Assembly (NCBI RefSeq): GCF_030128825.1
Contig: NZ_CP119127.1
Location: 1,612,001-1,676,000, forward strand
Source of the DNA: Sphingobium sp. WTD-1
GTDB taxonomy: Bacteria; Pseudomonadota; Alphaproteobacteria; Sphingomonadales; Sphingomonadaceae
Direction: 5' to 3'
DNA: 64,000 bases
The notes beneath the pieces are model-generated. The model saw only the letters and a list, made by a program, of their open reading frames with translations, ran no database searches and was not told the origin of the DNA. How positions within the stretch are numbered: the first letter of the stretch is position 1; each line of letters begins with the position of its first letter. Positions 38,503 to 64,000 of this stretch are shown here, piece after piece. A program made the position numbers and the translations under genes.

Positions 38503-38517
38503 CGGGGAGCCCTGCCA

Positions 38518-40244: not shown

Positions 40245-40250
40245 TCCGAA

Positions 40251-45226: not shown

Positions 45227-46426
45227 TCAGATTTTTTCGAGCAGTATTGCGACGCCTTGACCGACTCCGACGCACATTGTGCAGAGAGCCTTGCGTGCAC
45301 CGCTGCGAATGAGTTCCTCAGTCGCTGTGAGTACGAGCCGCGTGCCGGACATCCCAAGGGGGTGGCCCAGCGCGATTGCTCCACCGTTCGGATTGACGTG
45401 GTCGGCACAGTCGGGAAGGCCGAGTAGCCTCAGGACCGCCAAACTCTGGCTCGCGAATGCCTCATTGAGCTCGATCACATCGATCGAGCTCAATGGGATG
45501 CCGAACCGCTCAAGGAGTTTCTGGCTCGCTGGCGCGGGCCCGATCCCCATGATGCGGGGTGCCACTCCCGCGACAGCTGCCCCGAGGATTTTCGCCCGCG
45601 GCGCAAGCCCGTAGGAGTCAACTGCTGCCTTGCTGGCCACAACGATTGCGGCAGCCCCGTCGTTGATGCCGCTCGAATTGCCGGCGGTTACTGTCCCGCC
45701 ATCACCGGCGATGGGCTTCAATGCCGCTAGCCGCTCGATTGTAGTCGCACGAAGATGTTCATCATGCTCGAATTTTAGTTCTGTGCCCTTTGGCCCAGCG
45801 ACCCTCACCGGTACGATTTCCAGTGAAAGCCGCCCACTTATTTGGGCGGTAGCCGCACGACGCTGGCTTTCCAAGGCGAAGGTGTCTTGGTCGTCTCGGC
45901 TTATACCGAACTCGTGCGCGACGTTTTCGGCGGTCTCCGGCATGGAATCGGTTCCGTATCGCTCCTTCATCAGGGCATTTGCGAACCTCCAGCCTATGGT
46001 GGTGTCATGGATCACGTTGGCGCGCGAAAACGCGCTTTCCGCTTTTGGCAAGACGAATGGCGCCCTAGACATGCCTTCCACACCGCCGGCCACTATCAGA
46101 TTTGCTTCTCCTGTCTTGATCGCGCGAGCAGCAAGGATGACAGCGTCCATCCCCGAACCGCAAAGCCGGTTGACCGTCGTACCCGGGCATTGCTCGCCAA
46201 GACCAGAAAGCAGAGCCGACATACGTGCGATGTTACGGTTGTCCTCGCCTGCCTGATTGGCACAGCCAAGAATTACCTCATCGACATTTCCATCGATAAG
46301 CGGCCACTCGGACTTGAGAGCGGAGAGCGGCACCGCAGCGAGATCGTCGATCCGAATACTGGACAGACTTCCGCCATAGCGTCCGATGGCGGTGCGCACG
46401 GCCCCGCAGATATAAGCTTCGCTCAA
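45227..46426 (-). CDS. pcaF: 3-oxoadipyl-CoA thiolase
   Basis: Cleaves 3-oxoadipyl-CoA to succinyl-CoA and acetyl-CoA, the last step of the beta-ketoadipate pathway. The 399-residue protein opens SEAYICGAVRTAIGRYGG and has GCANQAGEDNRNIARMSALL, both strongly PcaF-like. The nucleophile is C89 in VNRLCGSGMDAV; GGAIALGHPLGMSG carries the active-site His and CTMCVGVGQG the second Cys. The open frame extends further upstream, but a TTG at 46426, after AGAGGGA, gives the family's normal N-terminus. It follows the FMN-reductase gene by 46 bp in one unit. It would consume carbon from protocatechuate. Confidence 0.88.
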   Translation of the reverse strand: MSEAYICGAVRTAIGRYGGSLSSIRIDDLAAVPLSALKSEWPLIDGNVDEVILGCANQAGEDNRNIARMSALLSGLGEQCPGTTVNRLCGSGMDAVILAARAIKTGEANLIVAGGVEGMSRAPFVLPKAESAFSRANVIHDTTIGWRFANALMKERYGTDSMPETAENVAHEFGISRDDQDTFALESQRRAATAQISGRLSLEIVPVRVAGPKGTELKFEHDEHLRATTIERLAALKPIAGDGGTVTAGNSSGINDGAAAIVVASKAAVDSYGLAPRAKILGAAVAGVAPRIMGIGPAPASQKLLERFGIPLSSIDVIELNEAFASQSLAVLRLLGLPDCADHVNPNGGAIALGHPLGMSGTRLVLTATEELIRSGARKALCTMCVGVGQGVAILLEKI

Positions 46427-46472
46427 GTCAGTTTCCCTCTGTCGCGTCAGACCGAGCGGCCGGTCAATTTCG

Positions 46473-47066
46473 TCAGCCGGATATCGCGTGATTGTCAGGC
46501 GCATTCGCCCAGTTCGTCATGCGGATGACATCCTCCAGCTTTCGCAACTGAGCTTCGATCATGGTACGCAAGGTGCCATCGAGAAGCTGCGAACGATCCT
46601 CGCTGAACTTGCTTGGCGCCAGACCCACGAAAATCTCGGGCGTCGCTACCAGATTGGCCTCAAGAAAGGTCAGCATCATCCGCATGTGATATTGCATTCG
46701 CGCTCCACCGAGCGGGCCGGCGCTCGCGGACTGAAGAGCAACAGCCTTTCCTTTCAGCGGCTGATTCTCGACTCGCGAAAGCCAGTCGAAAGCATTCTTC
46801 AGCGCTCCCGGGATGGTCCAGTTATATTCTGGACTCACAATTACCACTCCGTCGGAGCGGCGAATGGCTTCCGCCAGCGCGAGGACTGCTTCGGGTGTCC
46901 CGGCGCGCTGATGTTCATCGGCGTCATAGAATGGAAATTCAGCAAAGGACGGCGCGGTATCCATCGCAAACGATGCAGGTGCGAGCGACGGGAGCAGGCG
47001 GAGGAGTGCCGAGTTGTAAGACCCTGCCCGGAGGCTCCCGCTGATCATAAGTACGCGTACCGACAT
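46473..47066 (-). CDS. NADPH-dependent FMN reductase
   Basis: A 197-residue flavodoxin-like reductase. The FMN phosphate loop is SGSLRAGSYNSALL (9-22), and SPEYNWTIPGALKNAFDWLSR (78-98) is the second signature of the SsuE/ChrR/YieF family. It may reduce flavins, quinones or nitro groups. Here it is divergent from a nitroreductase and upstream of pcaF, so supply of reduced flavin or a helper role in nitroaromatic reduction is likely. An inverted repeat at 47080-47094 lies 14 bp before its start. Confidence 0.85.
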   Translation of the reverse strand: MSVRVLMISGSLRAGSYNSALLRLLPSLAPASFAMDTAPSFAEFPFYDADEHQRAGTPEAVLALAEAIRRSDGVVIVSPEYNWTIPGALKNAFDWLSRVENQPLKGKAVALQSASAGPLGGARMQYHMRMMLTFLEANLVATPEIFVGLAPSKFSEDRSQLLDGTLRTMIEAQLRKLEDVIRMTNWANAPDNHAISG

Positions 47067-47079
47067 TCCGTATCCCCAT

Positions 47080-47094
47080 GCAGAAAAGATCTGC
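47080..47094. promoter_or_regulatory. Possible LysR-type operator
   Basis: GCAGA-N5-TCTGC is a perfect interrupted dyad of 15 bp in the 124-bp divergent promoter between the FMN-reductase and nitroreductase genes. LysR regulators commonly bind such dyads; a LysR gene lies at 48573. Confidence 0.4.
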
Positions 47095-47190
47095 AGCGAC
47101 CTATCGTCTTGTGATGATTAGCGTCAAACTTGGGGCTTTGATCGTTCCCTGGAATTTTATCTTTAATAAACAGGAAGTTGTAGTCGCTTC

Positions 47191-48042
47191 ATGCTCGTGA
47201 TGAGAGTGCCGCATTTGGGTAATGCGTACTATTCACTTCTGAGTGATCGATCCGGGTGGCAAATCCGAAGGAGCATTGCCCCGTTAGTGCAGGCATTTTT
47301 GGAGCCGTACAGGTTGAGACCTCTCAGTGAAAAACGAGCGACCCTTCGGGTTCGGGATCGTGATCATGCTTCGATCGACGACGTCATCCGGTCGAGGACC
47401 TCGACGCGAAAATTCAGGACCGAGCCGGTTGGGGAGGAGCTGGTACGCGAAATCCTCGATGCCGCGCGGCACGCGCCGAGTGGAGCGAACATCCAGCCTT
47501 GGCGGGTTTATGTGGTTTCCGGCGAAATTCAGCACAAGATCGGCTCGACTCTCCTCCTGGCGCATGAAACTGAGAAAGACAGCTACGCTTCCGAGTATGC
47601 CTATTATGCGGAAGAGCTGCCGGAACCCTATCTTTCCCGGAAGAAGGACTTCGGCAGAATATTCTACGGATCACTGGGAATCGAGCAGGCCGACATGACG
47701 GGACGTGCACGACAGACCGGCAAGAACTATGGATTCTTCGGCGCTCCGGTCGGTCTCATCGTGACGATTGATCGACGTCTGGAACAGGGCAGCTGGCTGG
47801 ATCTGGGAATGTTCCTGCAGAATATCATGCTGAGTGCAAAAGGGCGTGGCCTGAGCAGCTGCCCTCAGGAAACGTTCGCGAAGTACCACAAGCTATTGCG
47901 GACACTTCTCCCCATTGCAGATGCGGAAATGGTCGTTTGTGGAATTTCCATGGGCTTTGAGGAGGACGGCAACGCCATTGAACCTCGTTTGATGCCCAGA
48001 GCGCCAGTCGATGAATTTGCATGTTTTCTCGGCTTCAATTGA
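47191..48042 (+). CDS. pnbA: Nitroreductase, probable 4-nitrobenzoate reductase
   Basis: An FMN-dependent nitroreductase-family protein. The core begins SIDDVIRSRTSTRKFRTEP (FMN phosphate binding), then ARHAPSGANIQPWRVYVVSG, and ends with LGMFLQNIMLSAKGRGLSSCPQETF, the standard layout. About 50 residues upstream of the core are atypical, so the real start may be later than the ATG at 47191; no alternative has a good ribosome site. The gene is followed 15 bp downstream by a PnbB-like gene. Together they would turn 4-nitrobenzoate into protocatechuate, this enzyme making 4-hydroxylaminobenzoate with NAD(P)H. Family is certain, substrate inferred from the neighbour. Confidence 0.8.
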   Translation: MLVMRVPHLGNAYYSLLSDRSGWQIRRSIAPLVQAFLEPYRLRPLSEKRATLRVRDRDHASIDDVIRSRTSTRKFRTEPVGEELVREILDAARHAPSGANIQPWRVYVVSGEIQHKIGSTLLLAHETEKDSYASEYAYYAEELPEPYLSRKKDFGRIFYGSLGIEQADMTGRARQTGKNYGFFGAPVGLIVTIDRRLEQGSWLDLGMFLQNIMLSAKGRGLSSCPQETFAKYHKLLRTLLPIADAEMVVCGISMGFEEDGNAIEPRLMPRAPVDEFACFLGFN

Positions 48043-48057
48043 GGATTGGATTTATCC

Positions 48058-48597
48058 ATGGGACATCGCGATCAGCTGATCGAACGCAGCATTTCCTTTC
48101 TCTCTGAAGTGAAGGACATGACCGCAAGCCGCGACTTGGAAGTCTGGCTGAACGAGAAGTACGGCCCCGCTACCGACACATATCGTGAACTCGCTACACT
48201 CATTCGATACGGCATCGACGAAGGTTGGGCGGCAAACCAGGAGATCGCTGGCAAGAGCTATCGTCGCAGCCGAATCATCGAGCCAGGGCCAGAAACCTTT
48301 CATTTCAGCATTACCGCCGTCTTCATGGACAGCAACGATGCGCGTGCCATTCGCGACGCGGACGGAGAGATCATCTTGCGTGGCGACTACCATGGTCATC
48401 CCTACGGTGAGTTGAACATGGTGGTTCCGATAGACGAGGGTGCCCAACTCCGCGGCTTGCACGGCTGGCAAGGTCCGGGCTGGACGGCTCCGGACCCAGG
48501 AAGTCGGCACTATCCCGAGGTGCGTGGCGGTGCGGTGATTGCATTGTTCTATCTTCCGGCAGGCCGCATCAGCTATGACTTTGCTCCGCCTAACTGA
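48058..48597 (+). CDS. pnbB: 4-hydroxylaminobenzoate lyase (PnbB/DUF4863 family)
   Basis: A 179-residue protein of the PnbB (DUF4863) family, which converts 4-hydroxylaminobenzoate to protocatechuate and ammonium. Segments I associate with the family are EVWLNEKYGPATDTYRELATLIR, GWAANQEIAGKSYRRSRI, YHGHPYGELNMVVPID and the C-terminal ALFYLPAGRISYDFAPP; the histidines in YHGHPYGE suggest a cupin-like metal site. It is the second gene after the nitroreductase. Its 3' end overlaps the converging LysR gene by 25 bp (48573-48597). This gene is the firmest link of the cluster to nitroaromatic catabolism. Confidence 0.82.
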   Translation: MGHRDQLIERSISFLSEVKDMTASRDLEVWLNEKYGPATDTYRELATLIRYGIDEGWAANQEIAGKSYRRSRIIEPGPETFHFSITAVFMDSNDARAIRDADGEIILRGDYHGHPYGELNMVVPIDEGAQLRGLHGWQGPGWTAPDPGSRHYPEVRGGAVIALFYLPAGRISYDFAPPN

Positions 48598-49571
48598 TCG
48601 CCGTCGGAAACCAGACGAGATACCAAGCTCCGCAAAATGCTTCTGAACCATATCAATCCTTCATCCTTGTCGGATCGCTGGTGCCAGATCATGCCGATCT
48701 GCTGTGAGGCACAGGGATAGGGAAGTTTGTCGAGCCTTACTGGATGGGTCCTGCAGAAATGTGCGCCTAGCGGGTGTGGAATGATGGCGGTGAGATTTGC
48801 CTCCACGACAAGCTCGGGCAATAGCAGCGCATGGGGGATGGCCAACAATGGACGGGGTATCAAGCCGCAATTCCGAAATGCGCGCTCAAGTGCTGCCTTG
48901 TCGTACATCTCGGTTCTTCGGCCCAATCCCCTTTCATAGATGAAGCCGCCGATTGCGCCCTCTTCTTCGCCGCCGACGGACACCACGGCCAGTCGCCGGC
49001 TATGCAGTTGGTCGGATCTCTCGATAGGCGTGCTGCCAATGGGAGAGATCAGCACGTCGCGATAGGCAGCCATCGGATCGAACCGCATGTGCTCGGGCCA
49101 TTCTGAGAAGCTTCCCAAGGCCACATCGATCCGACCGAGATCAATCATCTCTCCCAGATCCACGCGCGTGCCCGGTTTGACGACTAGAGATACACCGGGC
49201 GCGCTGCGCCCGAACTCGCGCAGCAGGTTTTGAACCGTGAGTATCGAGAGTGCGTCGCTCGCGGCCAGCGTAAACGTACGATCCGATGTGGCAGGATCAA
49301 ATTCTTGCCGTTCAACAGCTGTCCGAACTATCGCCAGCGCCGCCACGATCTCCGGAGCGAGTTCCAGCGCGCGTGCCGTTGGCTTGAGACCCCTGCGTGT
49401 TCTCAGAAATAGGTCGTCGCCGAGCTGGTCGCGGAGGCGGGCGAGGGCGTGGCTGACCGCCGATTGGCTCGTGCACAGCAGGCGACTGGCCCGGAGGGCG
49501 CTCCGCTCCTCCATGACCGCCGCGAAAACGCGAAGGAGGTTGAGGTCCAGCTGTTTGAACGATGGGGCCAT
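48573..49571 (-). CDS. LysR-family regulator of the nitrobenzoate genes
   Basis: A 332-residue LysR-type regulator: LDLNLLRVFAAVMEERSALRASRLLCTSQSAVSHALARLRDQLGDDLF in part (winged helix, about 7-55), then an effector domain of the NodD/PcpR-like class (LAASDALSILTVQNLLREFGR). ATG 49571 gives the usual start; a GTG at 49604 is also open. It converges on pnbB with a 25-bp overlap and diverges from the aldehyde dehydrogenase gene at 49797. I infer that it controls the dehydrogenase and perhaps the pnb pair, with an aromatic acid as effector. Confidence 0.87.
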   Translation of the reverse strand: MAPSFKQLDLNLLRVFAAVMEERSALRASRLLCTSQSAVSHALARLRDQLGDDLFLRTRRGLKPTARALELAPEIVAALAIVRTAVERQEFDPATSDRTFTLAASDALSILTVQNLLREFGRSAPGVSLVVKPGTRVDLGEMIDLGRIDVALGSFSEWPEHMRFDPMAAYRDVLISPIGSTPIERSDQLHSRRLAVVSVGGEEEGAIGGFIYERGLGRRTEMYDKAALERAFRNCGLIPRPLLAIPHALLLPELVVEANLTAIIPHPLGAHFCRTHPVRLDKLPYPCASQQIGMIWHQRSDKDEGLIWFRSILRSLVSRLVSDGDQLGGAKS

Positions 49572-49796
49572 TGAACCATATTGCCGGAAAAGACGGACAA
49601 GCACTTTTGTTCTGGCCGCTCAGACATTTGAAGGCTTCCATATGGCTGCACAAACGAGCCGCATCGGAAGGGATGCGTAATGTGCAAGTCCGCATAAGCA
49701 AATGACCGCCGGGCAAATGTGGCAGCTAGCCGTTCCCCGCATAAACTTCCCGATCATCGATTGTCCGTGAGGCGGACGAGGCTCGGAGGCAACGGC

Positions 49797-51203
49797 ATGG
49801 AAAACTATAGGATGTTGGTAGGCGGTAGCCTCATCGACGGAGACGAGATGGCCGATGTCATCAATCCGGCAACGGCAACGGTCGTTGCGAAAGCGCCTGT
49901 GGCAGACGCTGCTATTGTCGAAGCCGCCGTCTCAGCAGCGCATGCAGCGTTCGCGAGCTGGTCCATCGTGCCTCAGGCCGAGCGCGGCCAACTTGTCGCG
50001 CAACTTGCGAGTGGCATCGAAGCACAAAGCGCAAAGTTTGCTCGACTCCTCGTCGAGGAGCAGGGCAAGCCTCTCGGACTTGCCGAAATGGAAGTCGGGC
50101 AAACGGTTTACATTTTGCGCGCGTTTGCGAGCATGGAAACGACCGAGGAAGTCCTTCGCGATAATGAGGGAGAACGCATAGTCGAACATCGCACGCCGCT
50201 CGGGGTCGTCGCCATGATTACCCCCTGGAACTTCCCATTGCTTCTGCTGGCCACCAAATTGGCTCCGGGTCTGACTGCCGGCAATTGTGTCGTTGTCAAG
50301 CCAGCCCCGTCGACGCCCTTGACAACTCTGCTTCTGGGCGAGCTTTGCGCTGACATTTTCCCTGCCGGTGTCGTGAACATCATCAACGGACCAAGCCAGA
50401 TCGGAGCGCTGCTGACGGAACACCCACTCATCGCGAAGATCGCGTTTACAGGTTCGACGAGCACGGGGCGCCACGTAATGGCGAGCGCCGCATCGACGAT
50501 CAAGCGCCTGACCTTGGAACTAGGTGGCAATGACGCTGCCATCGTGATGAACGATATCGATCCTGAGGAAGTCGCCGAGCGCATTTTCGCTGGCGCAATG
50601 GTGAACTCGGGCCAAGTCTGTGTCGCCATAAAGCGGGTATATGTTCACGAGAATGTGTACGATGCGGTATGCGAGCGGCTAGCGGCCCTTGCTGAAGCTG
50701 CGGTCGTCGGTGATGGTTTTTCTCAAGGTGTGCAATTCGGGCCGTTGCAGAACGAAGCGCAATTTGCGCGCGCAAAAGAGTTTCTCCGGGAGGCTGCGAG
50801 AGATGGCACGATCATTGCCGGCGGCGATCCTATCGACCGACCGGGCTATTTCATTCCCCCGACGATCGTTCGTGATATTGACGACAGCGCGCGGCTGGTG
50901 ACCGAGGAGCAATTTGCTCCCATTCTTCCGATATTGAAGTATGTCGACCTTGACGATGTCATTGCGCGCGCCAATTTTGGTACGTTCGGATTGGCCGCTA
51001 GCGTCTGGGGCAAGGATCTCGATGCCGCCTATGGCATCGCTCAAAAGCTCGATGCTGGAACGGTTTGGGTAAACAAGCATTTCGACCTCCCGCCGGATGT
51101 GCCTTTCAGGGGGGCAAAGCAGTCGGGCCTCGGCGCAGAGCTCGGCCGCGAGGGCATGGCCGAATACAGCCAGCCCAAGATCATTAACATGGCCACTCAG
51201 TAG
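49797..51203 (+). CDS. NAD(P)-dependent aldehyde dehydrogenase, cargo copy 1
   Basis: A 468-residue aldehyde dehydrogenase. Motifs are PWNFPLLLLATKLAPGLTAGN, FTGSTSTGRHV, the general base E241 in LTLELGGND, the nucleophile C275 in MVNSGQVCVAIKR, and EEQFAPILPIL. The ATG at 49797 follows GGAGG. It stands between the LysR gene (divergent) and the AraC gene. With a nitrobenzoate module on one side and an aldolase on the other, the best guess is oxidation of 4-nitrobenzaldehyde to 4-nitrobenzoate. The family alone does not show this. Confidence 0.88.
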   Translation: MENYRMLVGGSLIDGDEMADVINPATATVVAKAPVADAAIVEAAVSAAHAAFASWSIVPQAERGQLVAQLASGIEAQSAKFARLLVEEQGKPLGLAEMEVGQTVYILRAFASMETTEEVLRDNEGERIVEHRTPLGVVAMITPWNFPLLLLATKLAPGLTAGNCVVVKPAPSTPLTTLLLGELCADIFPAGVVNIINGPSQIGALLTEHPLIAKIAFTGSTSTGRHVMASAASTIKRLTLELGGNDAAIVMNDIDPEEVAERIFAGAMVNSGQVCVAIKRVYVHENVYDAVCERLAALAEAAVVGDGFSQGVQFGPLQNEAQFARAKEFLREAARDGTIIAGGDPIDRPGYFIPPTIVRDIDDSARLVTEEQFAPILPILKYVDLDDVIARANFGTFGLAASVWGKDLDAAYGIAQKLDAGTVWVNKHFDLPPDVPFRGAKQSGLGAELGREGMAEYSQPKIINMATQ

Positions 51204-51326
51204 AGTCGGCTTCTTGGTTGATGGCCGGAGGCGAATCGGTTGTGCGATAGCGCCGAAAAGGCTATAGTGTCAGTTTGATCGAAAGAGTGAATCAAAGTGA
51301 GTGACGTCAACTCAGATGAATGAGCC

Positions 51327-51352
51327 GCAATAACGATCGATATCGTTGTTGC
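51327..51352. promoter_or_regulatory. 26-bp near-perfect palindrome before the AraC gene
   Basis: GCAAT-AACGAT-CGAT-ATCGTT-GTTGC: the inner arms are perfect and the outer arms match at 4 of 5. It lies in a 381-bp non-coding stretch (51204-51584) between the dehydrogenase and the AraC gene, about 230 bp upstream of the latter. No T-tract follows; an operator is likelier than a terminator. I see no other feature in this gap. Confidence 0.45.
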
Positions 51353-51584
51353 GGCGATGAGCTGGATGCAGTCAACGCCTAGCGTGCTGCGTGCAGGATG
51401 CCGCTATATTTCTGCGGAGTTCTGTCATGCTGGCGTTGACTCGGCGCTATCGCCGTCACCTGTCTTCCTATCTATTTGACGCAGTAAATGCGGCGTATGA
51501 GCCATTGCTGCGCTCATATGATCAATATCTTCATGTTCGACGCATGTCGTTCGTCGGTTCGTGGCACATCGGGGAGGAATCCCT

Positions 51585-52568
51585 ATGACAGCCATGCTCG
51601 CAGAACGAATGCTGAATCTGGTCCCACGCGACTACGAGATCGTCGAGCGCGAAGATGTCGGTTTGACCGCTCTGATCGCGACACGGCCGCAAAGGATGGA
51701 CGCGGAGGGGTTCCGGAACGTCCTGATATTCCCAGGTGGTGTAACGGTAAGCTGGGCTTCGCTCCATCGTCTCCGAGATGTGCAAGAAAGTGAGGAGAGC
51801 GATGGCGCCCTCCGGATCCACATACGCATGGCAGGGCGTTCCATCATCACTTCTGCATCAGCTCGATCATTCGAAATCGAACCAAGAAGCTGCACCGTAC
51901 CAATCAGCCCTGCGGGAGTGGTGCGTACTCAAAGCTTTTTTTCGGGGGACGAAGAGCGATCTGTAACGGTTTCGTGCGACAAAAACTACTTGATAGAGTA
52001 TCTCGGCTTGGACCCGAGCCTATACTCCGGGGCGCTCAGTGACTACCTGAACGACGTGAACGGGATATGCGGGATCATATCTACCGATTTGTCGTTCGAG
52101 CTTCGAGAAGCGGCCGCCGCTTTCTTCGAGGCTGCTGGTGCACCGTTCGCTCGCTGTCTCCTTCTGCAATCCAGAGCCAATGACATCATTCGCATCTTCT
52201 TCGAGCAGATTGTTCGGCGAGATGCTCGCGGTTCGCAGCCGCGGTCAAGAGACAGACTCGCTGTCGCTCGCGTCATGAAAATCCTTGAGGACAGGTATCA
52301 ACAGCCGCCGCCTGCAAACGAAATTGCTCGCCAAGCCGGCATGAGCTTGTCGAAGCTTAGCAAGCTGTTCAAGGCAGTCGAGGGTAAGACGATGATGGAA
52401 TATCTCCTCATGGTAAGGATGCGGCGGGCTTTGGACCTGATGCGTGAGGGCGATCTGTCGATAACGCAGATTTCTTACGAAGTCGGATACGAGTACCCGG
52501 CCAATTTTTCGACGGCTTTCCGACGGTTTTTCGGCACATCGCCTCGTGAAGCACTGTCCCAAGTCTGA
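51585..52568 (+). CDS. AraC-family regulator
   Basis: A 327-residue regulator with a C-terminal double helix-turn-helix (about 228-325): PPPANEIARQAGMSLSKLSKLFKAVEGKTMMEYLLMVRMRRALDLM in part, then ITQISYEVGYEYPANFSTAFRRFFGTSPREAL, the classic AraC signature. The N-terminal 220 residues are a ligand or dimerisation domain I do not recognise. GGGAGGA precedes the ATG at 51585 by seven bases. It converges with the long minus-strand catabolic block whose last gene ends at 52603, and is a candidate regulator of it. Confidence 0.9.
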   Translation: MTAMLAERMLNLVPRDYEIVEREDVGLTALIATRPQRMDAEGFRNVLIFPGGVTVSWASLHRLRDVQESEESDGALRIHIRMAGRSIITSASARSFEIEPRSCTVPISPAGVVRTQSFFSGDEERSVTVSCDKNYLIEYLGLDPSLYSGALSDYLNDVNGICGIISTDLSFELREAAAAFFEAAGAPFARCLLLQSRANDIIRIFFEQIVRRDARGSQPRSRDRLAVARVMKILEDRYQQPPPANEIARQAGMSLSKLSKLFKAVEGKTMMEYLLMVRMRRALDLMREGDLSITQISYEVGYEYPANFSTAFRRFFGTSPREALSQV

Positions 52569-52602
52569 CCCAAGGCGAGGCTGGACGCTTCACCTGCCGA
52601 GC

Positions 52603-53712: not shown

Positions 53713-53731
53713 CGATCTCCTTTAGGAAAAT

Positions 53732-54742: not shown

Positions 54743-54755
54743 GGTCTAATTTCGG

Positions 54756-55802: not shown

Positions 55803-55874
55803 CGGTCATATCTCCCTGGCCAAGCGATCGATCGTGCGTACGAGGGCCATCGGCTCCTGCGGTACGATATCTCC

Positions 55875-57491
55875 TCAGTGGCTTCTTCGGATCAGATCGG
55901 CCGCCCGTTCGCCAATCATGATGCACGGTGCATTTGTATTCGCGCTAACCAGCGTCGGCATGATCGAGGCATCCGCAACGCGAAGACCGGTGACGCCCTT
56001 GACGCGCAACTCCGGATCGAGAACCGCTGTCGGCCCAATTCCCATCGCGCAAGTGCCAGTCGGGTGGTACATCAGGAAGGCGCTCTGACGGATATACTCG
56101 ATCCAATCAGCGTCGGTTTCGACCTGCTTTCCGGGTAAGCGTTCACCTTTGTCATATTCACTGAATGGCTTGGAACGGAAAATCTTGCGCACGATCCGGC
56201 ATCCTTCGATGAGCTGCTTGATCTCATCATCTCCGCCGAGCAGCTCATGTTGGATAATCGGCCGCTCACTTGGATCGGTGGAGCGGAGCAGCAACTGACC
56301 GCGCGTCTCGGGCCGGCAGATGTTGATGGCAACGCCAATTGCCGCACGCTTGTACAGGTGTACGCCGTCCGGCGTGAAGTCGTACGCGATCGGCGAGAAC
56401 GACAGTTGGATGTTGGGCCACTCGAGATGGTCTCGCGTGCGAATGAACGCGAGAGCGGAGGCAACGCATGCCGTGGCTGGCCCTCGCCCAAACAAAGCGA
56501 AGTTCAAGCCATGCTTGACTATCCTGGCGACGCTTTGCACTTCGACATTGAGGCTATCGATGCCGACATGGGTCGACATCAACACTCCGGGATGTTCCTG
56601 CAGATTTTGCCCCACTCCCGGGGAATCGACGACAACAGGGATGCCATGCTCGCCAAGATGCTTTGCCGGGCCAATGCCCGAGAGCATCAATATTTTCGGC
56701 GACGACAACGCGCCGCCGCAAAGAATGACCTCCTTGTTTGCCAAGTAGCGAACCGTGCGCCCGTTCTGAACGCCTTCGACGCCGATCGCGCGGCCTTTCT
56801 CGATCAGTACCCGACTGACCATGAAATGCGTCTCGACCTTCAGATTGGATCGGCGCTTCGCCTTGGCCAGATAGGCGCGTGCCGTTGAATGTCGCCAACC
56901 CTTGTTCTGGGTGGCTTGGCAGGGGCCGATACCCTCTTGCTCGGCACCGTTGGTATCCGGATTGTGCGGAATCCCCGCACGTACGCCAGAAGCGATGAAT
57001 GCGTCGGCCAACGTGGTCGATAGGCGGGCATTCGATACGCGCAGAGGGCCCTTGTCGCCGCGAAAGCGCGAGCCGCCGTTTTCGTTCGTCTCGGCCTTGT
57101 TAAAGAACGGAAGCACGTCGTCATAGGACCAGCCCTTGCAGCCGAGCTGAGCCCATTGATCATAATCGCCGCGATTGCCGCGAACATACATCATCCCGTT
57201 GATCGACGAGCCGCCGCCGAGGACTTTGCCGGCCGGCCACATGTCTGCTCGATCGTTTCGTGAGGCATCCGGTTCCGCTTGATAGAACCAGTTGTACTCA
57301 GGATTCATGATCGCTTTGATCGAGCCCGCCGGAATCCGAATGAAAGGCGAGCTGTCCCACCCGCCGGCTTCGAGCAACGCGACCTCAAAACGCTTCTCTT
57401 CGCTTAGCCGAGATGCGACCACCGCGCCACTCGAACCGCCCCCAACGACGATAAAGTCCGTAGTTCTAATATCTTGCACAATGCCCTCCAT
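55875..57491 (-). CDS. GMC-family FAD alcohol oxidase/dehydrogenase
   Basis: A 538-residue glucose-methanol-choline oxidoreductase. The FAD dinucleotide motif is FIVVGGGSSGAVVASRLSE (13-31), the GMC signature 1 GKVLGGGSSINGMMYVRGN (about 88-106), and signature 2 GALSSPKILMLSGIGP (about 260-275). The active-site His is in YHPTGTCAMG (about 476) and the partner Asn in SANTNAPCIMIGERAAD. It oxidises primary alcohols to aldehydes. From memory, GMC enzymes (CapO) oxidise the C3-hydroxyl of chloramphenicol in sphingomonads; this gene is a candidate of that kind because of its neighbours. It ends 72 bp before the aldolase gene. Confidence 0.88.
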   Translation of the reverse strand: MEGIVQDIRTTDFIVVGGGSSGAVVASRLSEEKRFEVALLEAGGWDSSPFIRIPAGSIKAIMNPEYNWFYQAEPDASRNDRADMWPAGKVLGGGSSINGMMYVRGNRGDYDQWAQLGCKGWSYDDVLPFFNKAETNENGGSRFRGDKGPLRVSNARLSTTLADAFIASGVRAGIPHNPDTNGAEQEGIGPCQATQNKGWRHSTARAYLAKAKRRSNLKVETHFMVSRVLIEKGRAIGVEGVQNGRTVRYLANKEVILCGGALSSPKILMLSGIGPAKHLGEHGIPVVVDSPGVGQNLQEHPGVLMSTHVGIDSLNVEVQSVARIVKHGLNFALFGRGPATACVASALAFIRTRDHLEWPNIQLSFSPIAYDFTPDGVHLYKRAAIGVAINICRPETRGQLLLRSTDPSERPIIQHELLGGDDEIKQLIEGCRIVRKIFRSKPFSEYDKGERLPGKQVETDADWIEYIRQSAFLMYHPTGTCAMGIGPTAVLDPELRVKGVTGLRVADASIMPTLVSANTNAPCIMIGERAADLIRRSH

Positions 57492-57585
57492 GTGAAGGCC
57501 GCTCTAGCGCACCTCGGAAAGTTGGACTTTTGCGGTAGTCGCAAACAGATTTGGCGCTTGGGCCGATCTGCGATGTCGGCGGTGG

Positions 57586-59052
57586 CTAGCGATCCAGCGG
57601 CGCGAGGCAGCCAATTTGCTCCACGGCCATCCGACGGCTGTAGCTGGAGAGAGCGTCAACGCCGAACTCGATTCCGTAGCCGGACTGACCGGCAGGCTCC
57701 AGTGGAAGCGCCAGACCAGTCGCCGAGTCCTGACCAGCGACGGACTTGATCTTCAAATGACCGACGCAGAGTTCCTGCCGTAACATGTTGGCTCGAGCCA
57801 ACTCGCCGGTCCAGAGCGTCATCGCCAACCCGTAGCCGCCGAGGCCGGCCAGTCTCACGGCATCGGAGATGCTATCATATGGAACGACTGCAAGGATCGG
57901 ACCGAAATATTCATCTCGCAATATCGGCGATGTTGGGTCATCCGCTCTGACCACTGTCAGCGAATGATTCAGCATGTCGTGCTGCACGGGACGACCATCG
58001 CGGATGACTTGTTCGCCGCGACCGAGGGCCATGTCGACTGCCGATCGGATCCTGTCCGAATGAGCCTTGGACGCCAAGGGCCCGAATTTTGTGTTCGGCT
58101 CGAGAGGATCACCCGGCAAGAAATCTGCTGCAGCGGCTACGAGAGCGTCCGAGAATTGGTCAATACGATCGCTTGGGACGAGGATTTTTGAGCGGGCGAC
58201 GCAAAGCTGACCGCTATTTGCATATGCTTCCGCTACAGCGTCGATGGCTATGCCCTGATAGTCGGTCATGTCGTCAAGAACCACGATCGCGTTCTTTCCT
58301 CCGGCCTCGATGATAGCAGGCACGAGCCGCTCGGCCGCGAGCTTGGCGACAGAGCGGCCCGTCTGGGTCGAGCCCGTGAAGGCAAGCATTGCAACCCCGG
58401 GATGGCTGCAGAGCGCTGCGCCCGTCGCCGCTCCGCCAGGGAGGACAGACAGCAGACCGACGGGGATGCCCGCCTCTTCGGCGAGGGTGCCAATCAGTAT
58501 CGCGGAGCGGGGCGAAATCTCGGACGGTTTCAGCACCATGCCATTGCCGGCCGCGAGTGCTGGCCCAACTTTCATGGCGGCGTTTATACTTGGGTAATTC
58601 CACGAGACCATCGCGCCAACGACACCGTAGGGCACTCTCAGCGACAGAGAGATCGCCTCGCGCGACGACGCAATGACTTCTCCGCAAGCCTTGTCGATTG
58701 CCTGAGCGTACCAGCGCACAATGTGAGCGGCAACGCAGGCTTCCATCGTCGCAACGGCTATCGGTTTGCCCATGTCGACACAGTCGAGCATGCCGATGCG
58801 CTCGGCGGCGGCCTCTATTGCGTCGCCCCACCGCAGCATCGCCATTCGCCGTTCACTCGGCGCGAGCCGGTGCCACAAACCAGCAGCTCGACCCGCTGAA
58901 CCGACGGCCCGCTCGACATCAGCGTGTCCGCCGGCGCGAAACTGAAGGGCTCTGTCCGGAGCGGTCGGGCTCGTCCAGTCGATGACTTCGCCGCTCATCG
59001 GGGTCAGGCTCCCGATAATTCCATCAAAGCTCGTCATGTCGATCTCGGTCAC
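57586..59052 (-). CDS. NAD(P)-dependent aldehyde dehydrogenase, cargo copy 2
   Basis: A 488-residue aldehyde dehydrogenase: VSWNYPSINAAMKVGPALAAGNGMVLKPSE in part, FTGSTQTGRSVAKLAAERL, the base Glu in IIEAGGKNAIVV, and the nucleophile Cys in YANSGQLCVARSK. The C-terminus GQSGYGIEFGVDALSSYS is usual. GTG start with AAAGGA six bases upstream. It is directly upstream of the GMC oxidase by 94 bp, so it probably takes over the aldehyde made by that enzyme and yields a carboxylate. It is distinct in sequence from the copy at 49797. Confidence 0.9.
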   Translation of the reverse strand: MTEIDMTSFDGIIGSLTPMSGEVIDWTSPTAPDRALQFRAGGHADVERAVGSAGRAAGLWHRLAPSERRMAMLRWGDAIEAAAERIGMLDCVDMGKPIAVATMEACVAAHIVRWYAQAIDKACGEVIASSREAISLSLRVPYGVVGAMVSWNYPSINAAMKVGPALAAGNGMVLKPSEISPRSAILIGTLAEEAGIPVGLLSVLPGGAATGAALCSHPGVAMLAFTGSTQTGRSVAKLAAERLVPAIIEAGGKNAIVVLDDMTDYQGIAIDAVAEAYANSGQLCVARSKILVPSDRIDQFSDALVAAAADFLPGDPLEPNTKFGPLASKAHSDRIRSAVDMALGRGEQVIRDGRPVQHDMLNHSLTVVRADDPTSPILRDEYFGPILAVVPYDSISDAVRLAGLGGYGLAMTLWTGELARANMLRQELCVGHLKIKSVAGQDSATGLALPLEPAGQSGYGIEFGVDALSSYSRRMAVEQIGCLAPLDR

Positions 59053-59132
59053 GGCAAATCCTTTGACAGCGAAGCAGCGTTTCGCTGCGGGCCGACGCTC
59101 CTTAACAAGGACACGATTCCTGAGTGGTCAAA

Positions 59133-59157
59133 GCCGCCGGCCAGTGAGGCCGGCGGC
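59133..59157 (-). terminator. Strong hairpin after the TonB receptor
   Basis: GCCGCCGGCC (59133-59142) and GGCCGGCGGC (59148-59157) form a perfect 10-bp stem with a 5-nt loop, six bases past the receptor's stop codon. On the minus strand only TTT follows, so termination may be partial and the downstream catabolic genes may be expressed by read-through or from their own promoter. Confidence 0.6.
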
Positions 59158-59163
59158 GGATGT

Positions 59164-61353
59164 TCACCAGCTGTAGTTCAGCTTCACGCCAAACTTGCGA
59201 GGTGGAAGCACCGAGGCGCGGGTGAACGGTTGGAACGGCGGTGCGAACCGGCGTGTAATGTTGAAGTTGTCCGTCACATTGTCGACGTAAACGGTCAGCT
59301 CCCATCGGTCTCTCTTCAGACTGGCGCGGAGGTCGAGCTGGTCATAGGATTGAACCTGCAGGATCGGATCAAACGGAGGAGCCCCGTTACCGGAATAATA
59401 CGGCCCCACATAACGATAGTCGGCTGCGAGATTGAGTTCAGTGTCACCGATCGAGACAGTGTAATCTGCGCCGCCTGAAGCAGTCCACTTGGGGACATAA
59501 GGCAACGCATCGCCGGTCAGATGGGATCCTACCGGGCTCGTAATAGAGGTGAAGCGCGCGTCGGTATATGCAGCGTTCCCGCGAATCTTGAATCCGCGGA
59601 ACGGCATGGCGGTTGCTTCGAACTCGAACCCGCGGTTACGGGAGGCACCGACATTGGCAGTGACACCGACAGGGAGACCGGTGACCGGGCTGATGGCAAC
59701 AGAAGCCAGCTGCATGTCGTCCACCTGAACGATGAAACCAGCAACGCTGGCGATCAGGTGTCGGTCAAAGAGCGACGCTTTCAGCCCCACCTCATAATTG
59801 GTCGACTTTTCGTTGTCGAAAGCGATCCCAACGGCTGCACTGCTACCCGGATATTTGTCAAAGCCGCCTGAGCGATAACCTCGCGACACAGTCGCGTAAG
59901 TCATGACATCAGGCGTCCAGTGAACGGAGAATGAAGCGGACGGCGAGAAATTGCTGAAGCTTTTTGACGTGACTCCGCTGAACGCGTCGTTCGCGCCCAC
60001 AGCCGGCACGATCACGACGCCCTGCTGGAATGCCCGCGTCCGCTCCCAGCCATATCGCCCGCCGACAGTCAGCTCGAAGCGATCGTTGAACTTGTAGCCG
60101 ACTTGACCGAAAGCGGCCCAGCCGCGACGCCGCAACCTCGTCGCTTCCCGCACGTCGTTGGCGGGATTGAAAATCGGCGGAAAGGCGCAGATCGTACAGC
60201 CAGACAAGGCGAAATTGCGGTTCTGTTCGTGGATATCCTGAAAGGCGTACAATCCGCCAAGCCATGTGAAAGACCCGCCGCTCCTCGACTCGAAACGAAG
60301 TTCTTCGGAGAGTGCTGACTGGGTCGTGCGCTGGTCCTGAAAGTTGTCGGGGTCCGAATATCCATCAAAGTCGTACCAGAATTCGGTCTTTACGTGCTGA
60401 TATCCGGTGATCGACTTGATCGTAAACGCCGGAAGATCGTACGACATGGTTAGAGAGCCGCCAAAGCTCGTGTCGGGCGAGACAACCTTGCGATCATCGA
60501 GTGTGGCATAACGCTTCGCGCCGTCGTCCACGACGCCGTAACCGAGATAACCGTTTCTGTTGCGAGAACCATCCAGTCGGAGAATGATCTCGAAGTCTTC
60601 GGTGGGCAATGCGCGAAGCACGAAGCGCCCGGCCAGGCTGCGAAGCGTATCCTGATCCTTGTCGATGGTCAGGTTGTGGATGTAGCCATCGGTGCTGTAA
60701 TATTGACCAGAAAGGCTAGCGAAGAGCTTGTCCTCCACCAATGGGCCGCTGAAACTCGCGCCGAGGCGAACGCTATTGAAGTCCGCATATTCTGCGCGCA
60801 GCTTCCCACGAAAGGTGCCGTCGGGCTTCGCGGTCACAATGTTCAGTGCACCGCCTTCGGTGTTTCTGCCAAAAAGGGTACCTTGCGGCCCACGCAAAAC
60901 CTCGATGCGCTCCAAGTCGAGGAAGCCAGTGTCGAATGCCAGGCTCGGTTGATAGACGCCATCGACGAAGGTTCCGACAGCGGGATCGTTGGATGCCGCC
61001 GCTCCGACGCCGCGAAGTACGAGATAGGTCTGGTTGGGAAGCGGCCCGAACGCCTGGTTCTGGCTGGTGAAGAGGCTCGGAACCGTCCCGATCAGGTTTG
61101 TCACATTGTCGATGCCCTTCTGTTCGAGGGCAGCTCCGCCGATCGCCGAGACCGCCACCGGGATATCCTGGAGGCGTTCTTCGCGCTTGCGGGCGGTAAC
61201 GACAATGTCGAGCGATCCGCCCGATGAGGACGCGGAAGAATCTTGAGGCGCCTCGGGTGTCGCCTGCCCGAAGGCTGGCGTCGCCGATCCGGCCAGAACA
61301 GTAGCGGCAAGCAGGGCCGCTACCGACCCGTTCGTTCTATTCGACCGAGACAT
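59164..61353 (-). CDS. TonB-dependent outer-membrane receptor
   Basis: A 729-residue receptor. The signal peptide ends near residue 29 (TPAFGQA). A TonB-box-like stretch lies about 49-54 (LDIVVTARKREERLQDIPVAVSAIGG continues into the plug). The plug has YLVLRGVGAAASNDPAVGTFVDGVY and LEVLRGPQGTLFGRNTEGGALN-type segments, and the barrel ends with KFGVKLNYSW, with a terminal aromatic residue. It is of the sphingomonad type used for large or hydrophobic nutrients, so uptake of the cargo substrate is likely. AAGGGGGG lies just before the ATG. Confidence 0.92.
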   Translation of the reverse strand: MSRSNRTNGSVAALLAATVLAGSATPAFGQATPEAPQDSSASSSGGSLDIVVTARKREERLQDIPVAVSAIGGAALEQKGIDNVTNLIGTVPSLFTSQNQAFGPLPNQTYLVLRGVGAAASNDPAVGTFVDGVYQPSLAFDTGFLDLERIEVLRGPQGTLFGRNTEGGALNIVTAKPDGTFRGKLRAEYADFNSVRLGASFSGPLVEDKLFASLSGQYYSTDGYIHNLTIDKDQDTLRSLAGRFVLRALPTEDFEIILRLDGSRNRNGYLGYGVVDDGAKRYATLDDRKVVSPDTSFGGSLTMSYDLPAFTIKSITGYQHVKTEFWYDFDGYSDPDNFQDQRTTQSALSEELRFESRSGGSFTWLGGLYAFQDIHEQNRNFALSGCTICAFPPIFNPANDVREATRLRRRGWAAFGQVGYKFNDRFELTVGGRYGWERTRAFQQGVVIVPAVGANDAFSGVTSKSFSNFSPSASFSVHWTPDVMTYATVSRGYRSGGFDKYPGSSAAVGIAFDNEKSTNYEVGLKASLFDRHLIASVAGFIVQVDDMQLASVAISPVTGLPVGVTANVGASRNRGFEFEATAMPFRGFKIRGNAAYTDARFTSITSPVGSHLTGDALPYVPKWTASGGADYTVSIGDTELNLAADYRYVGPYYSGNGAPPFDPILQVQSYDQLDLRASLKRDRWELTVYVDNVTDNFNITRRFAPPFQPFTRASVLPPRKFGVKLNYSW

Positions 61354-61510
61354 AAACCCCCCTTATTATTTGCTGGAAGGAGCCGTACGCATGCCGCGCC
61401 AGCTGCCTGTCCAACTTCATAAGGCGAACGTCCTCCTCGCTGCTTTTGCCAATCTCTCTTCAATCATTGCACTTATGTGAAATACCTTTGCCGCGTTGCG
61501 CGGGCAATGA

Positions 61511-61936: not shown

Positions 61937-61972
61937 TCTCGAAATCCTTCTGATGAATAATGTGGATCGAAG

Positions 61973-63205
61973 CTACGCGGCGAAGTCGCTGTCCAGGCGC
62001 ATGGCGATCATCTCGGCAGTTGCAGCGGAAAGCGTCCAGCCAAGATGGCCGTGGCCGGTGTTGTAGTAGACGCCACGCACTCTCCCCGGCCTGACAACAG
62101 GCAGCATATCGGGCGTCATGGGGCGCAGGCCTGCCCATGGGGTGACGCTGTCAGTATCCATTTTGGGGAACAGGCGTTCCGACCAGCGCAGCAACGGGCG
62201 GATCCGGTCAGCGCGAATATCTAGGTTGAACCCATTGAACTCTGCGGTGCCGGCCACCCGGAATCGATCTGGACCGAGGCGGCTTGTGACGATCTTCGCA
62301 GCGTCGTCGAGCAGGCTGACACTCGGTGCAGCTGTTCGGCTCTGCTCGTCTCTCAAGTTTACAGTGATGGAATAGCCCTTCACCGGATAAATGTTTACTT
62401 TCTCGCCGAGCTTTCTGGCGATTTCTCGGCTTTCAACCCCTGCGCAGACAACGATGGCATCAGCTGTCTGAGAGGCGATCGGCCGACCACTCTCGTCATC
62501 GGTCAAGCTGATGGTACAAATCCGGTTCTGTATCTCCACTCGCCGGACAGCAGCTCCAAACTTGAAAATCACGCCTCGGCGTGCACACGCATCTGCGAGC
62601 CCGCGTGTGAACTTGTGGATGTCGCCCGTGGCGTCCCCCGGGGTGAAGAATCCGGCGTGAAGAGCGCCTTGCAGGCTCGGCTCGATCGCGCGCATTTCTC
62701 CAGCTGACACTGCGTGCCTTTCGAGCCCGCCCTTGAGGAGGAGGGCGTTGCCCACTTCGGCAGCACGAAACTCCTGTTCATTGTGGTAGAGATGAAGGAT
62801 TCCGCATCGCTTCAGATCGAAATCGATGCCCTCTGCTTCCGCAATGGTGAACATATGCCTTCGCGCGTCGAGTGCGAGACGAACGGTCGCGATCGTGTTT
62901 CTTTCGTGCCGAAAGATATTGCCGCAAAACTCGGCGAGCCACCCGTATTTGTGAAGGCCGGGCTTGAGGTTCAGCAACAACGGCGCGTCATTTTTCAAGA
63001 GCCATCTCATACCCTTTGCGATGGTGGCCCAGCTGTTCCAGACTTCGGCATTGCTTGCGGAGAGCTGGCCACCGTTGGCAAATGAGGTGACCATCGCCGG
63101 ATAGCGGCGACGATCGTAGACGGTGACTTCATGACCGCGGACAGCCAAGCTGTAGGCGGTTGTTACGCCGGTAATGCCGGCGCCGATGATGCTAATACGT
63201 GCCAC
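61973..63205 (-). CDS. dadA: DadA-family FAD amino acid dehydrogenase, possibly glycine-oxidising
   Basis: A 410-residue FAD-dependent D-amino acid dehydrogenase-like enzyme. The dinucleotide motif is ISIIGAGITGVTTAYSLAVRG (4-24), followed by YPAMVTSFANGGQLSASNAEVW, and the C-terminal FAD part is WAGLRPMTPDMLPVVRPGRVRGVYYNTGHGHLGWTLSAAT in part. Such enzymes deaminate D-amino acids, and some act on glycine or sarcosine. A tandem glycine riboswitch (63238-63388) precedes the GTG start at 63205, so glycine or a glycine-derived substrate is the best guess. GGGGAG is nine bases upstream and lies in a hairpin. It heads the minus-strand gene block. Confidence 0.85.
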   Translation of the reverse strand: MARISIIGAGITGVTTAYSLAVRGHEVTVYDRRRYPAMVTSFANGGQLSASNAEVWNSWATIAKGMRWLLKNDAPLLLNLKPGLHKYGWLAEFCGNIFRHERNTIATVRLALDARRHMFTIAEAEGIDFDLKRCGILHLYHNEQEFRAAEVGNALLLKGGLERHAVSAGEMRAIEPSLQGALHAGFFTPGDATGDIHKFTRGLADACARRGVIFKFGAAVRRVEIQNRICTISLTDDESGRPIASQTADAIVVCAGVESREIARKLGEKVNIYPVKGYSITVNLRDEQSRTAAPSVSLLDDAAKIVTSRLGPDRFRVAGTAEFNGFNLDIRADRIRPLLRWSERLFPKMDTDSVTPWAGLRPMTPDMLPVVRPGRVRGVYYNTGHGHLGWTLSAATAEMIAMRLDSDFAA

Positions 63206-63206
63206 T

Positions 63207-63220
63207 GGGAGCCGCTCCCC
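63207..63220 (-). promoter_or_regulatory. dadA: Hairpin masking the dadA ribosome site
   Basis: On the minus strand GGGAG (63219-63215), loop CGG and CTCCC (63211-63207) pair perfectly. The left arm is the ribosome site GGGGAG of the GTG start at 63205. It is the likely expression platform of the riboswitch just upstream. Confidence 0.6.
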
Positions 63221-63237
63221 AAAAGGTGGTGGATGCG

Positions 63238-63388
63238 CCCCATCTGTCCGCTGTGCCTGAGATCGCTATCCCGTCGGCGGGCACCCAGGCGGGCGCCACT
63301 CTCCAGATATCTTGATGCCCTGCGGTCCTTTTGCCTGAGAGTTTCCGGGGCGGTTGCTCCTTCGGCGCCGGCGAACGGTCTCTCCCGC
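63238..63388 (-). ncRNA. Tandem glycine riboswitch
   Basis: Two glycine aptamers lie head to tail, ending 33 nt before the dadA start. The first (63388-63322) reads GGGAGAG, GCCGAAGGAGCAA and CTCTCAGGCAAAAGGAC, essentially the consensus. The second (63307-63238) reads TCTGGAGAG, CCGACGGGATAG, ATCTCAGGCACAGC and GGACAGATGGGG; its CCGA(A/C)GG loop is one base off. A short linker joins them (about 14 nt). Binding of glycine would change access to the ribosome site in the following hairpin. Glycine riboswitches usually govern gcv or glycine transport genes, so its position before a DadA-type oxidase within a xenobiotic cluster is notable. Confidence 0.87.
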
Positions 63389-63551
63389 AATGGCAAGTCT
63401 GGCCTGCCTGGAAATGTGCGCTCAAGTCAATTCGGACGACCGAGAATGACGAAACCGCAAACGTCCTTCACATATCGTCAAAAGCAGCAGCTCCATGCCG
63501 ATGCGAAGGATAAGGTTCGAAGGAAAATTCCGAACAGTTCCGAGGCTTATA

Positions 63552-64000
63552 ATGCTTTCAAAAATTCGAGGCAGCGCGTCCGAAGCGCTTGAGGGTTTGC
63601 TGTTCGACGGAATGTCGATCATGTCGGGTGGCTTTGGCCTTTGCGGAAACCCGGAGAACCTTATCGCGGAGCTTTATCGAAGCGGTACCCGAGGGCTTAC
63701 AGTGATTTCGAACAACGCGGGCGCAGAAGGCTTTGGTCTGTGGCAGCTGCTGCAAAGCAGGCAGATCAGTCGCATGATCGCATCGTATATTGGCGACAAT
63801 CGTCTTTTTGAGCGGCAGTTCCTGGATGGTGACATCGAACTTGAGCTGAATCCGCAAGGTACGTTAGCCGAGCGCATTCGCGCCGGCGGCGCCGGCATTG
63901 CGGCATTCTATACCCGGACCGGGGTAGGAACCGTCGTCGCGCAAGACAAGCCTGTCGAAACTTTCGACGGCGATGAATATATTCGAGAGCGCTGGCTGAA
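63552..64000 (+). CDS. 3-oxoacid/3-oxoadipate CoA-transferase subunit A, partial
   Basis: The first 149 codons of a CoA-transferase subunit A; the gene runs off the right edge. It starts [20 protein letters not shown] and has the family signature [17 protein letters not shown] (about 22-38), then [19 protein letters not shown] and [20 protein letters not shown] with GVGT. It transfers CoA from succinyl-CoA to 3-oxoadipate (PcaI) or acetoacetate (ScoA); the two cannot be separated here. With the pcaF-like thiolase at 45227 the first reading is preferred. It is divergent from the riboswitch-dadA unit; 63389-63551 holds the promoters. Confidence 0.85.

Follow-up and report, generated by a model that had tools for sequence, protein, structure and literature searches.

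Which compound does the catabolic gene block at the right end of this stretch of Sphingobium sp. WTD-1 DNA serve to consume, and on what is the block carried? The stretch, called the window below, comprised 64,000 bases (positions 1,612,001–1,676,000 of the contig) of a genome totaling 5,674,265 bases in 6 contigs. A preliminary description, made from the letters of the window, had named chloramphenicol as the substrate. Based on all analyses, it was concluded that the locus is, quite probably, a chloramphenicol catabolic block with capO as in Sphingomonas sp. CL5.1, that it is located on a conjugative-type element in a tRNA-Thr gene, and that it would encode the route set out below.

capO and the First Step

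The capO primers of strain CL5.1 were printed in PMC9590159 (Microbiome, 2022). Their 20-base gene-specific parts matched the window at 57460–57479 (minus strand) and 55875–55894 (plus strand) with no mismatches, once each and correctly oriented at both gene ends, whereas no matches were obtained in shuffled sequence. The published start, a GTG at 57479, was positioned four codons inside an open frame beginning at 57491. By these sequence matches, the GMC gene at 55875–57479 is capO. According to the available text of PMC9590159, strain CL5.1 degrades chloramphenicol in the absence of any other carbon or nitrogen source, with capO induced, and capO expressed in Pseudomonas putida KT2440 converts chloramphenicol to the C3 aldehyde and acid. 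The substrate named in the preliminary description was thus borne out by the exact primer sites and by the activity proven for this gene.

The closest solved GMC protein was the chloramphenicol-inactivating oxidoreductase PDB 8b7s (614 bits over residues 6–532 of 534; the next match scored 360), which is a homologue and not the same protein. Aldehyde dehydrogenases 1 and 2 (ALDH1 and ALDH2) of the block were 31% identical to each other, and ALDH1 is the likely enzyme for the conversion of the C3 aldehyde to the acid. In the related genome G603, which belongs to another species of the genus, the capO forward primer site was present; the exact reverse primer site was looked for there and not found.

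The Catabolic Block and the Proposed Route

The guanine-plus-cytosine content decreased from about 0.68 to 0.56–0.60 at about 45 kb of the window. The following genes were found in the block, where coordinates beyond 64,000 are window-equivalent, the numbering being carried on past the window end.

45227–46504, minus strand: pcaF, 3-oxoadipyl-CoA thiolase (TIGR02430, 627 bits; cut-off 597)
46473–47066, minus strand: NADPH-dependent FMN reductase family (PF03358)
47191–48042, plus strand: nitroreductase (PF00881)
48046–48597, plus strand: pnbB, 4-hydroxylaminobenzoate lyase forming protocatechuate (PF16155, 199.6 bits)
48573–49604, minus strand: LysR-type regulator (PF00126/PF03466)
49719–51203, plus strand: ALDH2 (PF00171)
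51561–52568, plus strand: AraC-type regulator (PF12833)
52603–53712, minus strand: DUF2817 M14-like metallo-amidohydrolase (PF10994, 274 bits)
53732–54742, minus strand: EamA/DMT transporter (PF00892)
54756–55802, minus strand: L-threonine/phenylserine aldolase family (PF01212)
55875–57479, minus strand, frame open from 57491: capO, GMC family, chloramphenicol C3 oxidoreductase (GMC domain, both capO primers)
57586–59052, minus strand: ALDH1 (PF00171)
59164–61353, minus strand: TonB-dependent outer-membrane receptor (PF00593/PF07715)
61973–63205, minus strand: DadA-type FAD amino-acid dehydrogenase (NF009074, 665.6 bits; cut-off 494)
63234–63397, minus strand: tandem glycine riboswitch (aptamers 63313–63397 and 63234–63316; RF00504, 67.7 and 35.6 bits)
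63495–64262, plus strand: pcaI (CoA-transferase A), running past the window end
64259–64921: pcaJ
64912–65631: pcaH
65624–66319: pcaG
66316–67449: pcaB
67462–68634: pcaDC
68761–69930: MFS transporter
70115–70939, minus strand, likely ATG at 70771: type II haloacid dehalogenase (TIGR01428)
71074–73272, plus strand: malate synthase G

It was proposed that CapO oxidizes the C3 hydroxyl of chloramphenicol to the aldehyde and the acid, which is the step shown by the capO authors (PMC9590159), and that ALDH1 would assist the oxidation to the acid. The M14-type hydrolase of the DUF2817 family, expected by its fold family to grip the new carboxylate, would release dichloroacetate and yield L-threo-4-nitrophenylserine, which would be cleaved by the aldolase to 4-nitrobenzaldehyde and glycine. 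The aldehyde would be converted to protocatechuate by ALDH2, the nitroreductase and PnbB, and the ring breakdown would be completed by pcaHG-B-DC-IJ-F. The in-block haloacid dehalogenase would turn dichloroacetate into glyoxylate; glycine would be sensed by the tandem riboswitch and oxidized to glyoxylate by the DadA-type enzyme, and the extra malate synthase G would consume the glyoxylate from both arms. Such a route would be chloramphenicol biosynthesis in reverse, and an L-type aldolase fits it since the biosynthetic C2 comes from an L-amino acid.

The genes past the window edge, within 10 kb (pcaIJHGB-pcaDC, the MFS transporter, the haloacid dehalogenase and malate synthase G, to about 73.3 kb), mean that a candidate gene is available for each carbon piece, with the ring passing through protocatechuate and both dichloroacetate and glycine through glyoxylate. 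We infer the steps after CapO from gene family, place and this carbon balance. The reading given in the preliminary description was right at the first step, and for the later steps, whose order fits the families found, it is well backed by the same evidence. The NCBIfam cut-offs were exceeded by the products of pcaF, pcaI, pcaJ, pcaH, pcaG and pcaDC and by the DadA, malate synthase G and dehalogenase proteins. PnbB occurred in one copy in the whole genome and in 8 of the 396 sampled genomes of the order, its own included; being single-copy here and rare across the order, it argues that the grouping of these genes did not arise by chance.

All genes named earlier from the window were open frames at the places given and matched the families assigned. 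Some starts were revised: 48058 (PnbB) and 49797 (second aldehyde dehydrogenase) were internal ATG codons of frames beginning at 48046 and 49719, and the CoA-transferase A frame, placed at 63552, was already open from 63495. The EamA (53732), FMN reductase (46473), LysR (48573) and AraC (51561) genes had not been mentioned; the same holds for the haloacid dehalogenase, malate synthase G and the copy in a second species, all of which lie outside the window. The FMN reductase frame and pcaF overlapped by 32 bases.

Candidates for the Deacylase and the Aldolase

In the available text of PMC9590159, the amide hydrolase of CL5.1 was called uncertain and the C1–C2 cleavage was called oxidative. The DUF2817 protein displayed an M14 carboxypeptidase-type fold, in which the HxxE...H metal ligands and the catalytic E of an M14-type metallo-hydrolase (carboxypeptidase/AspA-AstE) were present. 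We proposed that this protein may act as the N-dichloroacetyl-nitrophenylserine deacylase.

The aldolase was a PF01212 fold-type I enzyme dependent on pyridoxal phosphate (PLP), with the invariant lysine and a whole-length match to solved members; K204 is presumably the PLP lysine. Its nearest relatives were L-threonine aldolases and phenylserine aldolases, and its gene adjoined capO, two genes from the DUF2817 hydrolase. It was proposed to be a putative 4-nitrophenylserine aldolase. The protein database pointed to further alleles (aldolase 95%, capO 98.5%, both entries having a longest contig of 4,498,106 bases), and a DUF2817 cluster there comprised 9 sequences on 47 contigs. The same database contained aldolase and capO-like proteins that were frameshifted or truncated (P0171 and P0261, 100% and 97% across the alignment, each on a contig of 3,300,232 bases); these are either assembly errors or decayed genes.

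The Ring, Dichloroacetate and Glycine Arms

The solved chains nearest to the nitroreductase were 3gr3 and 7dp0, and the enzyme would take the PnbA role, reducing 4-nitrobenzoate to 4-hydroxylaminobenzoate. Judged by its position near pnbAB, ALDH2 is likely a 4-nitrobenzaldehyde dehydrogenase.

Of the four genome matches to TIGR01428, the haloacid dehalogenase of the block was the sole one above the cut-off (193.6 bits; cut-off 125.4), and by alignment it was nearest to DehIVa. The in-block malate synthase G was the second copy in the genome, 69% identical to the other. The conversion of dichloroacetate to glyoxylate, followed by malate synthase, was likewise predicted in the available text of PMC9590159.

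The glycine riboswitch reported in the preliminary description proved real (67.7 bits) and, moreover, to be a tandem pair, with both aptamers above the RF00504 gathering cut-off of 32 bits and located upstream of the DadA-type gene; one overlapping lower-scoring match was left out. A lone aptamer at 63313–63397 was considered and dropped, as the second aptamer at 63234–63316 was listed. One other glycine riboswitch was found in the genome, also tandem; it preceded a GcvT gene, which was followed by a GcvP-type frame. The DadA-type protein had two solved relatives at E ≤ 1e-10, both of which were glycine oxidases, and the oxidation of glycine to glyoxylate is its preferred, predicted role. The idea that the riboswitch–dadA pair is unique to the chloramphenicol pathway was abandoned after similar riboswitch DNA was found in S. 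taxi, by an L-serine ammonia-lyase gene, and in Paraburkholderia.

Evidence against the Route and Alternative Explanations

Several observations weighed against the proposed route. The link of the locus to strain CL5.1 rests on two 20-base matches. A sequence search for solved relatives of the DUF2817 protein gave no matches, and the Foldseek TM-scores among the 50 matches listed were low (0.33 to 0.48 by query). The aldolase matched L-threonine aldolases as strongly as it did PDB 1v72, the Pseudomonas putida phenylserine aldolase, and the pcaB product fell below the TIGR02426 cut-off (337.5 vs 355.75). The NCBIfam model matched by the DadA product is that of D-amino acid dehydrogenase, not glycine oxidase, and the riboswitch-like DNA in Paraburkholderia stood before a D-amino acid dehydrogenase gene, outside a chloramphenicol pathway. 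Pure cultures of CL5.1 left about 37 mg/L dichloroacetate (PMC9590159, available text), which could mean a weak or silent dehalogenase, or one that acts on another acid. The same text has dadA deaminating the intermediate P-226 and lists products of C1–C2 cleavage that derive from earlier intermediates, so this bond may also be cut by routes other than the aldolase. The available texts of PMC9590159 and of PMC13400229, the latter a study of Nocardia testacea CS1, yielded no assay for the steps that follow CapO.

The alternative that survived best, although unlikely on balance, places the C1–C2 cut at the C3-aldehyde stage. A retro-aldol reaction, spontaneous or catalyzed by an unlisted enzyme, would yield 4-nitrobenzaldehyde and N-dichloroacetyl-aminoacetaldehyde; ALDH1 would form N-dichloroacetyl-glycine, the DUF2817 protein would release glycine and dichloroacetate from it, and the aldolase would be accessory. 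Beta-hydroxy aldehydes tend to undergo this kind of reaction, and an N-acyl-glycine would suit the DUF2817 protein too. Consistent with this, both CL5.1 and Caballeronia PC1 produced P-171, P-169 and P-185, the last of which was deduced to yield glycine and dichloroacetate (PMC9590159, available text); route II in the available text of PMC13400229 is similar in kind. However, the aldolase beside capO, two genes from the hydrolase, is of the L-threonine/phenylserine type, and P-226, its expected substrate, was reported with CL5.1 (PMC9590159). The aldolase route and the C3-aldehyde cleavage may run together.

It is rather improbable that, as proposed in the available text of PMC9590159, nitrophenylserine (P-226) undergoes oxidative deamination by the DadA enzyme, with glycine as a side product left to the glycine cleavage system. 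The DadA gene does stand in the block, its product exceeds the cut-off of the D-amino acid dehydrogenase model, and P-225 and its reduced products were deduced from the deamination step in the same text, all of which favors this alternative. However, C2 would be L after the C3 oxidation, the wrong configuration for a D-enzyme unless first isomerised at C2 (an isomerisation reported for Caballeronia PC1; PMC9590159). Moreover, the tandem glycine riboswitch lies directly upstream of the gene, and both solved relatives at the above threshold oxidize glycine.

GMC enzymes are broad in substrate, and homologues of the aldolase and of the DUF2817 protein were common. Nevertheless, that the natural substrate of the block is another nitroaromatic or aryl-serine and chloramphenicol a side substrate of CapO was regarded as very improbable: CL5.1 also degrades thiamphenicol, by the title of a cited reference, but it breaks down chloramphenicol without other carbon or nitrogen, with capO induced (PMC9590159, available text), and the genes of the dichloroacetate and 4-nitrobenzoate arms beside capO make up the sum of the parts of chloramphenicol.

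The Apparently Mobile Element and Its Copy in a Second Species

The chloramphenicol block appears to sit on a conjugative-type element in a tRNA-Thr gene, and the mobility of the element is suggested by the following genes.

14267–14342, plus strand: tRNA-Thr (CGT), left element edge (ARAGORN)
14313–15995, minus strand: large serine recombinase, probable integrase (PF00239, PF07508 and PF13408)
34299–43215, plus strand: conjugation (type IV secretion) genes VirB3, TraG-type P-loop, TrbL/VirB6, VirB8, CagX/VirB9 and TrbI/VirB10 (Pfam)

The 3' part of the tRNA-Thr gene was repeated at window-equivalent 121996–122021, within a 63-base repeat of the tRNA end (121971–122033). The hallmark of an integrative element, an integrase at a tRNA gene with flanking direct repeats, was thus present, with the far repeat lying beyond prophage genes. 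A right-hand attachment site was looked for near 80.7 kb and not found, and no relaxase was detected among the 20 left-arm frames scanned, which were not all of the frames. Between the catabolic block and the right tRNA repeat (80740–122033, loci L007–L009), prophage genes (tyrosine integrase, terminase, portal and tail), a tRNA-Thr (TGT) and two tRNA-Met genes were observed. Three DNA methylase genes were also observed on the element (18785–19453, 24774–26126 and L007:941–2251), one of the N6/N4 type and two of the C5 type; they perhaps serve self-protection during transfer.

In G603, 66.5 kb were 99.4% identical to 14224–80724 of the window numbering and stood at that genome's own tRNA-Thr gene, whereas the DNA left of the element was 76–82% alike between the two genomes. 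The 6.45-kb core was full-length in these two of the 94 genomes of the genus, the other listed matches being short. Right of 80.7 kb the genomes differed, with the prophage in the window genome and, in G603, other DNA that encodes a tyrosine recombinase and, farther on, another serine recombinase. This second serine recombinase gene (C1:270660–272328) was 88.7% alike at the DNA level and started at the next tRNA-Thr repeat, which points to tandem elements at one tRNA gene.

Of the 396 mismatches between the two copies, 14 were at the tRNA edge, 136 in 49597–52358, 243 in 55764–61346 and 3 at 76–79 kb, and the 3 gap columns were at 21423 and 55840–55841. All differences within the cargo fell in two tracts, the rest (about 20 of 28 kb) being identical. 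The first tract contained the ALDH2 and AraC genes, the second capO and the ALDH1 and TonB receptor genes, and the changes in these genes were mostly at third codon positions. The two tracts fit homologous replacement by a cluster diverged by 4–5%, of which a recombination mosaic around capO is what would be left.

Occurrence Elsewhere and Comparison with Known Systems

The other block proteins were searched for at E ≤ 1e-15 in 45 loci with an aldolase relative, a few of which spanned only 4–9 kb. The aldolase alone was reported in 43, nothing in L054, and a 40% GMC match with pieces of aldehyde dehydrogenase in L017; neither DUF2817 nor PnbB was detected in any of the 45. Among eight PnbB loci from other genomes (L088–L095), each only about 3.4 kb, seven gave a PnbB match (27–39%) and L094 none. 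A family-wide search of 397 sampled genomes listed no near-identical block DNA besides its own, the best other match being 64% over about 1.5 kb (G220). No record of the plasmid collection, in which entries of the window's own strain may be hidden, matched the aldolase, GMC or DUF2817 protein at 60% identity or above; at the DNA level, 41 records each covered at most 2% of the query, and the 6 at ≥99% corresponded to 45–48 bases of the riboswitch. No literature on an element carrying chloramphenicol breakdown was found by title among the matches listed.

The capO gene of CL5.1 (PMC9590159) is the same gene as the window GMC gene by both primer sites. That article treats capO by itself, and the words horizontal, mobile and transpos do not occur in its main text as available, where the locus is therefore not described as mobile. 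For Nocardia testacea CS1 (PMC13400229, June 2026), the same reaction order, oxidation–deacylation–aldol cleavage, was proposed with ChdA, ChdB, ChdC, ChdD and PnbAB, based on metabolites, annotation and transcripts; the word heterologous is absent from the available main text. The chd cluster and the window block both contain a GMC oxidase, an aldehyde dehydrogenase, an L-threonine aldolase, an amide hydrolase, PnbA, PnbB and means of glycine disposal, and ChdB was stated to be 30% identical to CapO. However, the amide hydrolase of CS1 is an annotated hippurate hydrolase (ChdD), whereas that of the window is a DUF2817/M14 protein (PF10994). Glycine disposal relies on a glycine cleavage system and SdaA in CS1, and on the riboswitch, DadA-type enzyme and malate synthase in the window. 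The regulators and transporters were IclR (ChdR) and an oligopeptide transporter in CS1, and LysR, AraC, TonB and EamA in the window. The words haloacid, glyoxylate, riboswitch, mobile and horizontal are absent from the main text of PMC13400229 as available, and no dehalogenase is named there for CS1. Its Figure 1C depicts clusters of six other degraders and may already include parts of the window locus. The pnbAB route of Pseudomonas putida TW3 (via the available text of PMC13400229) likewise uses a nitroreductase and PnbB and then protocatechuate; unlike it, the window joins pnbAB-type genes with capO, the aldolase and the 3,4-cleavage genes on one element.

The novelty claimed in the preliminary description was thus overstated, since GMC oxidation had been published for CL5.1 (PMC9590159), and deacylation and threonine-aldolase cleavage had been proposed for CS1 (PMC13400229). 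Its deacylase and its glycine sensor are new as candidates, the DUF2817 protein being unlike the hippurate hydrolase of CS1. New here are the candidacy of the DUF2817 protein, the presence of both a glycine and a dichloroacetate arm within one block, and the apparent mobility.

Significance

A broader reading is offered tentatively, at somewhat less than an even chance. The element would be self-transferring and carry the complete mineralization of an antibiotic in one block, with biosynthesis reversed; DUF2817 would represent a novel type of N-dichloroacetyl-arylserine deacylase, the C–C bond would be cut by an aldolase of the phenylserine type, both two-carbon pieces would meet at glyoxylate, and the glycine riboswitch would act as the product sensor. 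The block and the actinobacterial chd cluster would have been put together independently, and the capO half of the block would still be reshuffled between species by recombination.

Candidate genes are provided for two steps left open in the available text on CL5.1, amide hydrolysis and C1–C2 cleavage, and dadA is reinterpreted as the gene of a glycine enzyme. Compared with the Nocardia cluster, the block is built differently but shares its proposed chemistry, and the existence of such a second chloramphenicol cluster points to repeated assembly. The gene set appears able to dismantle chloramphenicol completely as food, the steps past the first enzyme being predicted. The near-identical copy at the same tRNA gene in another species indicates that the catabolic trait can be transferred as a whole, a point relevant to antibiotic-waste clean-up and to the origin of antibiotic-consuming bacteria.

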